DNA of 64,000 bases, taken from Stappia sp. TSB10P1A. GTDB lineage: Bacteria; Pseudomonadota; Alphaproteobacteria; Rhizobiales; Stappiaceae. How positions within the stretch are numbered: position 1 is the first letter of the stretch; the number at the start of each line of letters is the position of its first letter. Below are positions 53,747 to 59,136 of the stretch, piece by piece. A program made the position numbers and the translations under genes. The stretch lies in contig NZ_FYAU01000029.1 of NCBI RefSeq assembly GCF_900185725.1, positions 186,001-250,000 on the forward strand, given 5' to 3'. The notes below the pieces were generated by a model. It was not told the origin of the DNA and searched no databases. It saw only the letters and a program-made list of their open reading frames with translations.

Positions 53747-56326
<2,580 letters not shown>

Positions 56327-56435
56327 CCACCGCCGGCCCGCCCGCCGGAGTGGTTGCTGCGCGAAAGCCGGATGCCGGAATCGCGCAGCAAGCAATCGGA
56401 CGCGGCGGAAAACGCCGGAAAGCGGGATTCTCCCT

Positions 56436-56464
56436 TTGACAAAGCGGGCCGCCCCCCCTATACG
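56436..56464 (+). promoter_or_regulatory. Near-consensus promoter of rpsL
   Basis: TTGACA (56436-56441), exactly 17 bases, TATACG (56459-56464). Both hexamers are close to consensus and the spacing is optimal. It lies 43-71 bases before rpsL, and with the terminator at 56917 makes rpsL a single-gene transcript. Confidence 0.75.
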
Positions 56465-56506
56465 AGGCGGCCAAGACATTCCTCAAAAACAAGCTGCAAG
56501 CACCCT

Positions 56507-56878
56507 ATGCCGACAATCAACCAGTTGGTTCGCCTGAACCGTAAGCCGACCGTCAAGAAGTCCAAGACCCCCGCGCTGGGCGGTAACCCGCAGAAGCGCG
56601 CGGTTTGCACCCGCGTCTACACCACGACGCCGCGCAAGCCGAACTCGGCTCTTCGTAAGGTCGCGCGTGTTCGCATGACCAATGGCAATGAAGTCACCGC
56701 CTACATTCCGGGCGAGGGCCACAACCTGCAGGAGCACTCCGTGGTGCTCGTGCGCGGCGGCGGCCCGAACGACCTTCCGGGCGTGCGCTACCGCGTGATC
56801 CGCGGCGTGCTCGACACCCAGGGCGTCAAGGACCGCAAGAAGCGCCGGTCGCTCTACGGCTCCAAGCGCCCGAAGTAA
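56507..56878 (+). CDS. rpsL: 30S ribosomal protein S12, with substituted streptomycin-site residues
   Basis: S12 of 123 residues, part of the decoding centre. The sequence is full length and normal elsewhere ([41 protein letters not shown]), but residue 43 is Arg ([10 protein letters not shown]) and residues 86-88 are Gly-Pro-Asn instead of the near-universal Arg-Val-Lys. Lys43 and Lys88 (numbering with Met) are the two classic streptomycin-resistance sites; the methylthiolated Asp89 is kept. It lies next to gyrB with its own promoter and terminator, not followed by rpsG, fusA or tuf as usual. Either the str operon is broken here or this is a second rpsL. Confidence 0.93.
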
Positions 56879-56916
56879 GTTTCCGGCCGGGTTGTCCCCG
56901 GCAGGGTTTGTCTTCG

Positions 56917-56958
56917 CAAGGCCTTCCGGGCATCCGTCCGGGAGGCCTTGTTGCTTTT
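56917..56958 (+). terminator. Intrinsic terminator after rpsL
   Basis: CAAGGCCT pairs with AGGCCTTG, extended inward by CCGG/CCGG pairs, 39 bases after the rpsL stop, with TTGCTTTT behind. It confirms that rpsL is monocistronic. Confidence 0.8.
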
Positions 56959-57097
56959 GCGCCCAGCCGGTCGCGGCCATGGCGGCGGACGGGGACAGGT
57001 GGCGGACGGGGAACCGGCTCCCGGCGGGGGTATCCGGGGCACCGCAGATGCGGTTTCAAGGCCCTGAGGCGGGGACAAGTGGCGCCAAGGCCAACGG

Positions 57098-57129
57098 AAA
57101 AAGCGCCCTCCGATTTCTCGATGGGCGCT
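57098..57129 (-). terminator. Probable minus-strand terminator downstream of the GcrA-like gene
   Basis: On the minus strand AGCGCCC (57129-57123) pairs with GGGCGCT (57108-57102) around a 14-base loop, followed by five T (57102-57098, first base shared with the stem). It would end a transcript from the 57265-57477 gene about 165 bases after its stop, or a small RNA. Confidence 0.5.
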
Positions 57130-57139
57130 ATCTTGTTGA

Positions 57140-57205
57140 AATATAGAGATATTTTTTGAGACGATTTTGCAAAATTTTGCGAGATTTTGCGTTTGGCGTC
57201 TCAAA
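57140..57205. repeat. A+T-rich block of phased direct repeats inside an inverted repeat
   Basis: Between the convergent rpsL and GcrA-like genes lies a conspicuous A+T-rich island in otherwise GC-rich DNA. ATTTTGC occurs three times at exactly 10-base spacing (57164, 57174, 57184), and the overlap gives the 12-base palindrome GCAAAATTTTGC (57169-57180). These are bracketed by a perfect 9-base inverted repeat, TTTGAGACG (57155-57163) and CGTCTCAAA (57197-57205). A smaller dyad AATAT-agag-ATATT lies at 57140-57153. I know no element of this shape; the rest of 56959-57264 shows no gene. Confidence 0.7.
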
Positions 57206-57264
57206 TCGCGCTGTTTTCGATCATCTCCGCCGCGACCGGCCCGGCCGGCGAGGCGCGTGCCGGA

Positions 57265-57477
57265 TCAGGCGGCGATGCGGCGCTGTGCCCGGAAGGCGAT
57301 CGGCGCGCTCTCGCGATTGCGGCGACGCTCCTCGGCCGAGATATAGACCAAGGCGTGATGCTCGCTGCAATAGGAGACGCCGGCCTCGACGCGGTTGCGG
57401 CAGGGGAAGGTGTAGTTGCCGCCGGTGCCCTCGGCCCACTTGCACTGGCCGGCACGCGGCAAACGGAGTTCGTTCAT
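57265..57477 (-). CDS. GcrA C-terminal-domain-like small protein
   Basis: 70-residue protein resembling the C-terminal, sigma-70-contacting half of the cell-cycle regulator GcrA: LPRAGQCKWAEG, then a second cysteine (FPCRN), then GVSYCSEHHALVY. The Cys12, Cys26, Cys37, His40/41 pattern suggests a zinc ribbon. The N-terminal DNA-binding helix-turn-helix half of GcrA is absent: the ATG at 57477, with AAGGAT upstream, begins just before the domain. It could modulate sigma-70 or GcrA, or be a degraded copy. The assignment rests on remembered motif similarity and needs a profile search. Confidence 0.55.
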   Translation of the reverse strand: MNELRLPRAGQCKWAEGTGGNYTFPCRNRVEAGVSYCSEHHALVYISAEERRRNRESAPIAFRAQRRIAA

Positions 57478-57580
57478 CGGTCTGATCCTTCAAGCTGCGA
57501 CGCCTGGCGCTGCGAAGCGCGATCCGCGGGTCTTGCCGGGGTATCGGTGTCAGGAGCGCCGACCTTGCGGCCGCGGCGTC

Positions 57581-57607
57581 AAAAAAGCCGGGCGCTCGAG
57601 GCCCGGC
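57581..57607 (-). terminator. Minus-strand intrinsic terminator downstream of the OmpA-like lipoprotein gene
   Basis: GCCGGGC (57607-57601) pairs with GCCCGGC (57593-57587) around a 7-base loop, followed on the minus strand by six T. It lies 280 bases past the stop at 57887 and upstream of the GcrA-like gene, separating the two units. The dyad ATGAC/GTCAT in 57617-57637 is next to it. Confidence 0.75.
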
Positions 57608-57723
57608 GTCGATCTGATGACTGTAATATAGGTGTCATATTGCCAAAGGCCAAACGCGTCCCCGGCATGGGAGCCATGCCTTTATTGCAGTGCAGCGATG
57701 TGGTTAACGCCGAGCCGCCAGTT

Positions 57724-57758
57724 GGGTGCCGGAATGGGTGCCGGAATAGGCGCCGGGA
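57724..57758. repeat. 12-base tandem repeat, about 2.9 copies
   Basis: GGGTGCCGGAAT is repeated at 57724 and 57736, with a third degenerate copy (AGGCGCCGGGA) to 57758. It is in the 409-base non-coding gap 57478-57886, in which I find no gene. Confidence 0.6.
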
Positions 57759-57808
57759 CGGCGACGCGATCACCGGCCGGCGGGCAGGGGGGGCGGCGCC
57801 AGGTGCGG

Positions 57809-57874
57809 GCCTCTCGTCCCGGCCCCTCCTGGCCTCTCCTCCCCGGCCTCTCGTTCCGGCTTCTCGTCCCGGCC
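57809..57874. repeat. Imperfect pyrimidine-rich tandem repeat
   Basis: Four to five imperfect copies of a 13-14-base unit of the form GCCTCTCGTCCCG, ending 12 bases before the stop codon of the OmpA-like gene. Low-complexity, probably formed by slippage; with the 12-base repeat it marks this gap as unstable. Confidence 0.55.
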
Positions 57875-57886
57875 TGGCGCGCGCGC

Positions 57887-58432
57887 CTAGCGCTCGCGCT
57901 CCTCGCGCAGGTTGGTGACCACCCGGCGGTTCTGCGCCTTGCATTCCTCCGCCGGACAGTCGCGCACCTTGCGGTCGGTGCCGTAGCCCTTGGCCCACAG
58001 CCGGTTCGGCGAAACGCCCTTGCCAACCAGATAGGCCATCACCGCATTGGCCCGGCGCGTCGACAGGGTGCCGTTGTCGCCGGGGCTGCCCGGATCGTCG
58101 GAAAAGCCCTGGATCTTGGCGTACCAGTGCCGGTTGGCGGTCAGCCAGTCGGCCTGCTTGTCGAGCGTCATGCGCGCGGTCTCGTCGATCTCCGCAGAGC
58201 CGGGCGCGAAATAGGTGCGCCGGCCGACATTGAGCATGAAGGCCTCTTCGCTGCCCGGCTCCATGTTGGCGAAGCCGAGCACCGGCGCATTGGTGATGTC
58301 CGGCGAGGCGACGTTCTCCACCGTGTTGCAGGCAGCCAGCAGGCCGCAGGCGGCCAGCACGGCAAGGAGACGGACGGTCGGCGCCGGCCCCGGCAGGGAG
58401 CGGGCGGCGAGGGGTGTCGCGGATGAGGTCAC
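57887..58432 (-). CDS. OmpA family lipoprotein
   Basis: 181-residue outer-membrane lipoprotein with a peptidoglycan-binding OmpA domain. A GTG start with AGGAG upstream gives a signal peptide ending in the lipobox LLAAC. The OmpA domain has RTYFAPGSAEID, the diaminopimelate-contacting Asp in GFSDDPGS and Arg in LSTRRANAVMAYL, then GKGVSPNRLWAKGYGTDR. Its GTG overlaps the stop of the L,D-transpeptidase (GTGA), so the two are translated together. Pal-like in shape but not beside tol genes. Confidence 0.87.
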   Translation of the reverse strand: MTSSATPLAARSLPGPAPTVRLLAVLAACGLLAACNTVENVASPDITNAPVLGFANMEPGSEEAFMLNVGRRTYFAPGSAEIDETARMTLDKQADWLTANRHWYAKIQGFSDDPGSPGDNGTLSTRRANAVMAYLVGKGVSPNRLWAKGYGTDRKVRDCPAEECKAQNRRVVTNLREERER

Positions 58433-59136
58433 GTGCGCTCCTGGTCCTGCGGGGTGCCGGCGCCCAGATGTTCGAGAACCGACACGCGGGTTCCGACCGG
58501 GCAGCGCTGGTAGAGGTCGATGATGTCCTCCGGGAACATGCGGATGCAGCCCGACGACACGTTGCTGCCGATGCTCCAAGGCTCCAGCGTGCCGTGCAGC
58601 CGGTAGCCGGTGTCGGCGCCGCTGTCGTGATGCAGGTAGAGCGCGCGCGGCCCCAGGGGGTTGCTCGGCGCGCCGCCCTCCACCATCTGCGGCAGGTCGG
58701 GCTGGCGCTGGCGCATCTCCGGCGGCGGCACCCAGCGCGGCCACAGCGCCTTGCGCCGGACCTGGGCGCGGCCGAACCACTGGAAGCCCTCGCGGCCGAC
58801 GCCGACGCCGTAGCGCAGCGCCGTGTTGTTCTCCCAGATCCAGTAGAGATAATGATTGCGCGTGTCGACGACGACAGTGCCGGGCGATTCGGGCGAGAAA
58901 TACTTGACCATCTGCCGGCGCCATTGCGGCTTGATCACCGAGAAATTGGTGCGCCGGAAGCTGAAGCCGTTGTCCGCTTCGGCCCCGTCGAACCATTTCG
59001 AGGACGCGATCGCCGGCATCGGCAGCGAGATGTTCGCCGCCAGCGCGCCCGCACCGACGAGCAGCGCCCTCCGGGTCATGGATATCCGGCTCACGGATAT
59101 CGGGCTCATGGACAGCGTGGTCCTGGATACCGTCAT
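58429..59136 (-). CDS. L,D-transpeptidase (YkuD family)
   Basis: Exported 235-residue enzyme that makes 3-3 peptidoglycan cross-links or attaches proteins to peptidoglycan. The YkuD signature is HGTLEPWSIGSNVSSGCIRM, with the catalytic cysteine in SSGCIRM. The ATG at 59136 has GGAGGAGAC upstream. The long N-region ends with MTRRALLVGAGALAANI, a twin-arginine-like export signal. Coupled to the OmpA lipoprotein gene by a 4-base overlap, which suggests joint work on anchoring the outer membrane to peptidoglycan; that is inference. Confidence 0.9.
   Translation of the reverse strand: MTVSRTTLSMSPISVSRISMTRRALLVGAGALAANISLPMPAIASSKWFDGAEADNGFSFRRTNFSVIKPQWRRQMVKYFSPESPGTVVVDTRNHYLYWIWENNTALRYGVGVGREGFQWFGRAQVRRKALWPRWVPPPEMRQRQPDLPQMVEGGAPSNPLGPRALYLHHDSGADTGYRLHGTLEPWSIGSNVSSGCIRMFPEDIIDLYQRCPVGTRVSVLEHLGAGTPQDQERT

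Follow-up and report, generated by a model that had tools for sequence, protein, structure and literature searches.

A short patch between two convergent genes of Stappia sp. TSB10P1A, lying in a 64,000-nucleotide stretch of contig NZ_FYAU01000029.1 (hereafter the window), is, judged by its sequence, one copy of a dispersed element of about 82 bp that is carried by five of 14 Stappia genomes. On the same grounds the copies constitute a family of dispersed palindromic repeats, set apart by A-tracts in helical phase and by even spacing. This chromosome-wide, evenly spaced family is not visible from the window alone.

The preliminary description of the window had reported three ATTTTGC units, a 12-bp palindrome and a flanking 9-nt inverted repeat between converging genes. 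Direct reading and a repeat search recovered all of them: the units start at 57164, 57174 and 57184, 10 bp apart, the palindrome reads GCAAAATTTTGC, the arms TTTGAGACG and CGTCTCAAA are perfect, and the whole extends from arm to arm over 51 bases, 57155-57205 (Table 1). The convergent setting holds as well, with rpsL on the plus strand and a gene of 70 aa on the minus strand. The likeness of the 70-aa protein to GcrA, a cell-cycle regulator, is confined to the C-terminal part of the latter; other Stappia have the protein, and its orthologue in the complete chromosome G002 matches NF050816 with an E-value of 3e-4, under the curated cut-off. The minus-strand terminator named before was seen by eye as a hairpin with a T-run, and its stem was found by the repeat search; it is absent from the output of the terminator scan, which listed the rpsL terminator and a terminator-like site at 57194-57213 (+), within the element. 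The window element is placed between the stop codon of the GcrA-like gene and that gene's hairpin, and a matching hairpin is found at the same place in the orthologues and in two outgroups.

Table 1. Features at and around the window copy of the element (positions in the window)
Feature	Positions	Strand	Basis or remark
Whole phased A-tract element, window copy	57139..57217		A-tract centres and profile match
Left arm TTTGAGACG, contains the family's GAGA word	57155..57163	+	Direct reading, repeat search
Three ATTTTGC units, 10-bp spacing	57164..57190	+	Direct reading, pattern search
12-bp palindrome GCAAAATTTTGC	57169..57180		Overlaps family core ATTTTGCAAAAT (57164-57175)
Right arm CGTCTCAAA	57197..57205	+	Direct reading, repeat search
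Flanking motif GCGGGGACAAG	57069..57079	+	Motif enriched near family members; a similar GGGGACAG begins at 56991
Intrinsic-terminator-like hairpin of GcrA-like gene	57098..57129	-	Stem in repeat search
Intrinsic-terminator-like hairpin of rpsL	56916..56951	+	Terminator scan
rpsL, ribosomal protein S12	56507..56878	+	Pfam PF00164, E 5e-37
70-aa gene resembling C-terminal part of GcrA	57265..57477	-	PF07750, E 4e-4, under cut-off

The two-unit pattern ATTTTGCNNNATTTTGC, with at most two mismatches, has three matches (overlaps included) in the 64 kb, all of them in the window element, against 0.11 expected by chance, and three were reached in none of 100 shuffles. Over 57142-57225 the A/T periodicity at 9.75-11 bp was equalled by one of 200 dinucleotide shuffles. 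A-tract centres lie at 57140.5, 57154, 57166, 57174.5, 57186, 57204.5 and 57215.5; six A-tracts were counted for the copy, with a vector sum of 4.9. A family profile matches 57153-57211 with 36.7 bits and an E-value of 1.6e-10, the window copy being itself one of the 36 training rows of that profile. The copy is a diverged member, of a variant class with the right arm farther out.

Searched in the window's own genome, ATTTTGCNNNATTTTGC gave 47 matches, some overlapping, and its reversed control three. Reading of these places yielded a common core, GAGACGGATTTTGCAAAAT, which at two mismatches or fewer matched 26 times in G000, 29 in G001, 31 in G002, 28 in G006 and 31 in G008. The other nine Stappia have 0-1 matches, the reversed controls gave 0 in all 14 genomes, and each of the 82 non-carriers among the 87 genomes of the whole bacterial family has at most two. 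A sequence-only profile gave 77-83 matches per carrier with both strands counted, about twice the number of places, since the palindromic element matches on both strands (as it does at 39 of the 43 G002 places). The same profile gave 0-6 weak matches per genome in the other nine Stappia at E-values up to 0.1; at E-values up to 0.01 its matches outside the five carriers number two in G004, three in G007, four in G012 and one each in G024 and G036. On the complete chromosome G002, 82 profile matches at E-values up to 0.1 fall into 43 places, a count taken from the best 150 of 690 candidates scored, in which very diverged copies may be missed. The copy set used below, 133 after L075 (a duplicate of L056) had been dropped from 134, comprises the window copy and the copies from 132 of the 145 places that the pattern gave in the five carriers; it represents 35 places, after manual division of two merged flank clusters, 0 and 1, into four and two sites.

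An exact scan of named genomes returned 42 stretches. Stappia indica SBBC 49 and Stappia sp. WLB 29 account for 30; the remaining 12, from Marivita and relatives, Clostridia, Ferrimonas and others, resemble the element in nothing but the shared 19-mer. In Marivita and its relatives GAGACGGATTTTGCAAAATCCGTC stands just 5' of an ORF-like start ATGATCAGCGA, with one copy per stretch (L077, L089, L092, L094, L097, L108, L111), and these copies are perhaps an unrelated operator. A related family in sister Stappia was considered and rejected, as the similar phased sequence proved to occupy one place each in G004, G007, G011 and G012. These places (G004:C1:28974, G007:C24:24375, G011:C1:948867, G012:C3:434025) hold an A-tract-rich, phased-looking but different sequence, which may be a distant relative of the element. 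The portions covered of the literature on Stappia repeats (interspersed, intergenic, palindromic) and on evenly or regularly spaced repeats contain no description of the family.

The conserved stretch has the consensus aAAttTcGAGACGGATTTTGCAAAATTCCGTCTCgAaaTcgcnnaattTcGagannnncctCnCaAantcgcC (about 82 bp, one representative per place). A/T-rich stretches alternate with G/C-rich ones at a period of 10.25 bp in the 35 site representatives, and short words occupy preferred slots. Of the 133 copies, 121 have GAGA at 0 and 51 have it at 43, while 97 have TCTC at 23 and 53 have it at 53. TpA steps are nearly absent, 17 in 36 elements, giving an observed/expected ratio of 0.08, or 0.10 once the search 19-mer is left out; the ratio in 104 intergenic windows of comparable A+T is 0.59. 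Elements average 5.1 A-tracts against 1.7 in those windows, and the resultant of A-tract phase is about 3.70-3.77, with its maximum at 10.25-10.5 bp, against a background of about 1.0-1.05. The helical phasing suggested for the window patch thus extends to the family, with A/T runs every ~10.4 bp. A-tracts repeated in helical phase produce bent DNA. Because the element is a helically phased A-tract array almost devoid of TpA steps, the two features expected of curved DNA, it should be intrinsically bent. Paralogues are only 49% identical (ungapped) outside the search motif and have nonetheless kept the A-tract phase and the avoidance of TpA; with so low an identity, recent spread alone does not explain the likeness within the family.

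Genes around the copies were called with a home-made GC-position scorer and not taken from annotation, and at some sites the neighbours differ between species. By species majority the 35 places are convergent in 15 cases, tandem in 15, divergent in one and unclassified in four. Convergent spacers make up 15 of the 31 classified sites, compared with 20 of 199 background spacers in G002 (60-700 nt, within 400 kb), of which 39 are divergent; Fisher's test gives p 2e-6 for the surplus of convergent spacers and 0.02 for the shortage of divergent ones, the element and background sets being filtered by slightly different distance rules. Only G002 served as background because the scorer called too few genes in G011. 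Counted per copy, 67 of 121 are convergent, 49 tandem and five divergent, the tally including those of the 134 copies that have both neighbours nearer than 700 nt. Tandem sites show no strand preference (8 ++, 7 --), which is what an element acting as DNA, and not as RNA, would give. The neighbours that were named (eight of 42 listed) include citrate synthase, ribosomal protein L20, a cold-shock-like protein and rpsL, genes that are often strongly expressed. This 3'-end bias does not by itself show function, since dispersed repeats generally favour convergent and tandem spacers (PMC3733652).

Conservation in relatives, proposed earlier as a check on the window patch, was found: four congeners have a copy at the corresponding position 3' of the GcrA-like gene, with the core lying some 73 nt from the stop codon. 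In G001, G002, G006 and G008 rpsL and the GcrA-like gene are separated by a gene of 1542 nt, photolyase-like by eye only, that the window's genome lacks (56879-57264 compared with L073-L076). The distance from hairpin to stop codon is 126-135 nt in the five carriers, and 61 and 49 nt in the outgroup Stappia G011 and G013, where the spacer is 65-86 nt shorter and lacks the element; by this measure, the extra piece of the carriers is the element. The element keeps its places across the five species, and most places are common to them. At element positions 20-29, which lie outside the search motif, the identity between orthologues reaches 0.94, and at 40-59 it is 0.86-0.87, compared with 0.81 at third codon positions of the left-hand genes and 0.69-0.79 in adjacent spacer, while positions 30-39 (0.79) and 60-69 (0.81) are not above third codon positions. 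The comparison covers 22 sites, selected for a core kept in four or more of the five species, and leaves out as evidence positions 0-18, which had served to find the copies. Within this scope the element is conserved in part above third codon positions.

The places are also evenly distributed. Gaps between the 43 places of G002 (best 150 of 690 candidates) range from 44 to 284 kb with a CV of 0.49; random sets of 43 average a CV of 0.97 and 12 gaps shorter than 40 kb, and among 20,000 such sets none was as even and none had so large a smallest gap. Even the five weakest matches each lie at least 66 kb from any strong one, in an area amounting to a quarter of the chromosome. With the 31 G002 places of the pattern search alone, the evenness is less marked (p 0.037 by CV and 1.5e-4 by smallest gap). 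Among the places listed, the smallest within-contig gaps are 51.3 kb in G000, 44.3 kb in G001, 45.3 kb in G006 and 43.8 kb in G008, and for the 32 places listed on the main G006 contig none of 20,000 random sets had so large a smallest gap (CV p 0.006). Because the five species share most places, their spacing is close to one observation and does not amount to independent tests. The positions show no global period.

The explanation that we favour for the entire set of observations, with some hesitation, is a lineage-specific family of bent elements, about 43 per chromosome (best 150 of 690 candidates), that sit at gene 3' ends, often between convergent genes, are spread evenly and are predicted to act as protein-bound topological anchors. 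We infer that the bend comes from the phased A-tracts and that a protein which binds, wraps or bridges DNA sits on it along one face of the helix. The ligand would most likely be DNA gyrase, or else a nucleoid protein such as GapR or HU, and each copy would serve as an anchor, absorbing the positive supercoils that collect where transcription units converge and delimiting some 120 kb of chromosome. Among the readings of the preliminary description, which is partly supported overall, helical phasing with a nucleoid-protein site fares best. Several published observations are in keeping with such anchors: in Escherichia coli the gyrase motif shows G/C variation phased at 10 bp, with an enrichment of gyrase sites in BIME-2 repeats and in the DNA downstream of highly transcribed operons (PMC6379681), GapR acts as a marker of positive supercoiling where genes converge (PMC8360656), and a role in marking supercoiled loop tips has been proposed for curved DNA (PMC3940949). 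The gyrase signal at BIME-2 rose rather than fell under a transcription block, however, which argues against a simple supercoil-sink reading in E. coli (PMC6379681), and for GapR the parts covered of PMC7373187 give no target motif. GapR is encoded in all 14 Stappia genomes, including the nine without the family, and gyrase is expected in all, so neither explains the restriction to one clade.

A bolder version, which we regard as unlikely, would make the family a ruler encoded in the chromosome's sequence: at least 43 bent anchors, about one per 120 kb and hardly ever less than 44 kb apart, whose spacing would itself be selected and would set the size of topological domains, each anchor holding a complex of gyrase or a nucleoid protein at a transcription sink. 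We know of no conserved DNA repeat for which the property under selection is how it is spaced around an entire bacterial chromosome.

The main rival is an ordinary dispersed repeat, which we consider possible if somewhat unlikely. A neutral REP- or MITE-like palindrome would have spread in the ancestor of the clade, been tolerated mainly at gene 3' ends and then been inherited vertically; its even spacing could come from transposition target immunity of a since lost transposase, or be chance. The restriction to one clade, the two outgroups without the extra 65-86 nt at the window locus, the lack of a fixed strand relation to genes and the 3'-end and convergent placement, typical of REPs (PMC3733652), all agree with it. 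Against it, the Y1 (RAYT) transposase domain PF01797 was found in none of the 14 Stappia genomes, the control search finding it in five of 14 named genomes, and a REP/RAYT system was rejected on this ground. The persistence of A-tract phase and TpA avoidance in paralogues half identical, and the part of the element conserved above third codon positions, likewise count against neutrality.

Insertion marks were sought at a companion motif, gCGGGGAYAAgc, which lies within ~250 bp of 115 of the 133 copies, at 31 of the 35 places and in both orientations, against six motifs in 264 control windows 750-1050 bp away, mostly genic. In 400 kb of G002, 13 such motifs occur in spacers, by eye eight of them beside one of four elements. 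No target-site duplication was seen at nine left/right pairs of the GGGG motif, pairs that were set by the motif, which may count against the neutral repeat. A mobile element bounded by the motif was rejected, there being no duplication, variable distances and a GGGGACA at an outgroup locus without the core. A different, MITE-like repeat of 250-300 bp, unlike the phased element and with ends like TAGGTCGTGGACTCATAATT and its reverse complement, has three copies between convergent genes (L255, L259, L262; offsets 42148, 128206 and 180919 in the 400 kb of G002).

That the element acts as RNA at the 3' end of transcripts, its inverted repeats folding into a bidirectional terminator or a 3' stabiliser of the adjoining genes, appears quite improbable. 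Fold energies are below those of shuffles on both strands (mean z -2.2 and -2.4, with 17 and 19 of 36 below -2), which speaks for it, although an inverted repeat would give as much. So do the terminator-like site within the window element and sites 13 and 27, where the element occupies the entire 81-87 nt separating two stop codons and the terminator scan detected no U-tailed terminator; a miss by the scan carries little weight, since it recovered a site in only six of 17 spacers of the background. Modest covariation is seen in a second dyad, TCTCGAAAT/ATTTCGAGA, where 8 of 8 pairs show two-sided changes and 2 of 500 shuffles equal the score; an RNA or cruciform reading would predict this. The main palindrome, however, does not covary: its score is 0.063 against 0.080 when shuffled, with no sign of compensatory changes in the main stem, RNAalifold gave six pairs of which none has two-sided changes, and several outer pairs are often broken. 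Against the RNA reading stand also the consensus, with no U-run after the main palindrome, the separate terminator-like hairpins kept at the window locus and several others, and the tandem sites with their lack of orientation bias. The small-RNA gene raised in the preliminary description likewise finds no backing, as no Rfam model matches 56300-58500 at gathering score; relaxed thresholds gave two chance-level matches there (E 0.38 and 0.7), and a small RNA or riboswitch was rejected. Taken together, covariation, folding and orientation favour a DNA element, a cruciform or RNA role being less likely.

Very doubtful is a site for a sequence-specific protein of the clade that would read GAGA half-sites and serve as a segregation or nucleoid-occlusion mark around the chromosome. 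The GAGA/TCTC words at fixed slots would suit it, as would the smallest G002 gap of 44 kb (best 150 of 690 candidates) and the contents of the two largest gaps: within the same best 150 of 690, one of 282 kb holds a parS-like cluster (G002:C1:2804254-2810782, at 2.80-2.81 Mb, five palindromes within 6.5 kb) and one of 284 kb holds a GC-skew sign change. On the other side, no candidate protein was identified, and a fixed protein site would not need TpA avoidance. The terminus of G002 was placed by coarse GC skew only, the skew changing sign at 0.02-0.26 Mb and at about 3.0-3.2 Mb, and because the latter change is away from the parS-like cluster, the link of the gaps to cluster and skew is a lead only. 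Nor was a dif site found with three mismatches allowed, and element density does not fall with distance from parS.

A phage attachment site, also suggested earlier, is not supported: the one complete chromosome has copies scattered over 43 places (best 150 of 690 candidates), and the search gave no integrase domain among the seven neighbouring ORFs scanned and nothing similar to a consensus-like copy at E 0.01 in phage and plasmid records; a phage or plasmid origin was rejected, the 19-mer being shared by four IMG/VR contigs (one sequence) with unrelated surroundings.

The kinds of element that come closest are REP/BIME repeats and gyrase sites; the likeness is one of sequence features and no class membership is claimed. 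With the REP/BIME repeats of E. coli and relatives and the CGTC-tagged REPs of alphaproteobacteria (PMC3733652) the family shares a dispersed, partly palindromic, intergenic nature and a bias to convergent and tandem 3' ends, its places being intergenic and mostly of these two kinds. It differs in length (about 82 bp against 20-40 bp) and in number, at least 43 places against over 100: REP copy number is high, usually over 100 (PMC2817692), and G002 has 43 places at E-values up to 0.1 (best 150 of 690 candidates). It differs further in lacking a RAYT and a covarying main stem, and in having phased A-tracts, TpA avoidance and even spacing. CGTC-tagged REPs carry the tag (or TGTC, CCTC) at one end, followed by a stem of 8-9 bp whose first two pairs are A-T, a loop of 4-5 and a CCA tail (PMC3733652). 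In our consensus CCGTCTC lies inside a dyad and is not clearly terminal, and the best stem after CGTC by eye, TCGAAAT/ATTTCGA, has C-G as second pair, a loop of 6 and no CCA tail; its 8-pair version is paired in 66.8% of cells. We file the family as a variant among dispersed palindromic repeats, and not as REP/RAYT or CGTC-REP, because it lacks some of the features tested for each.

With the strong gyrase sites and motif of E. coli, which include BIME-2 (PMC6379681), the element shares a preference for positions downstream of genes and a phased G/C variation of about 10 bp over many helical turns (10.25 bp here, the A-tract resultant peaking at 10.25-10.5 bp); gyrase is general, whereas the element is confined to one clade. 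The curvature-related periodicity of bacterial chromosomes (PMC3940949) likewise involves A-tracts in helical phase, with a proposed nucleoid-protein role at supercoiled loop tips, but is statistical and genome-wide, where the element is a discrete, conserved, dispersed sequence family. GapR-bound regions also lie between convergent genes and are reported to correlate only modestly with A+T content, and Stappia encodes GapR; by way of difference, GapR reads overtwisting, and the parts covered of PMC8360656 describe no conserved repeat target.

It is still an open matter what determines how large the supercoiled domains of bacterial chromosomes are and where they end, and whether these limits are encoded in the DNA sequence. 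Elements that are few, countable, conserved, probably bent and evenly spaced, in a culturable marine genus, make it testable. Should the family be an ordinary repeat, the minimum distance of 44 kb (best 150 of 690 candidates) would still need a cause, for example target immunity of some transposase. On the reading that we favour, of bent, protein-bound anchors, the elements may help to organise or untwist the chromosome of the Stappia that carry them.
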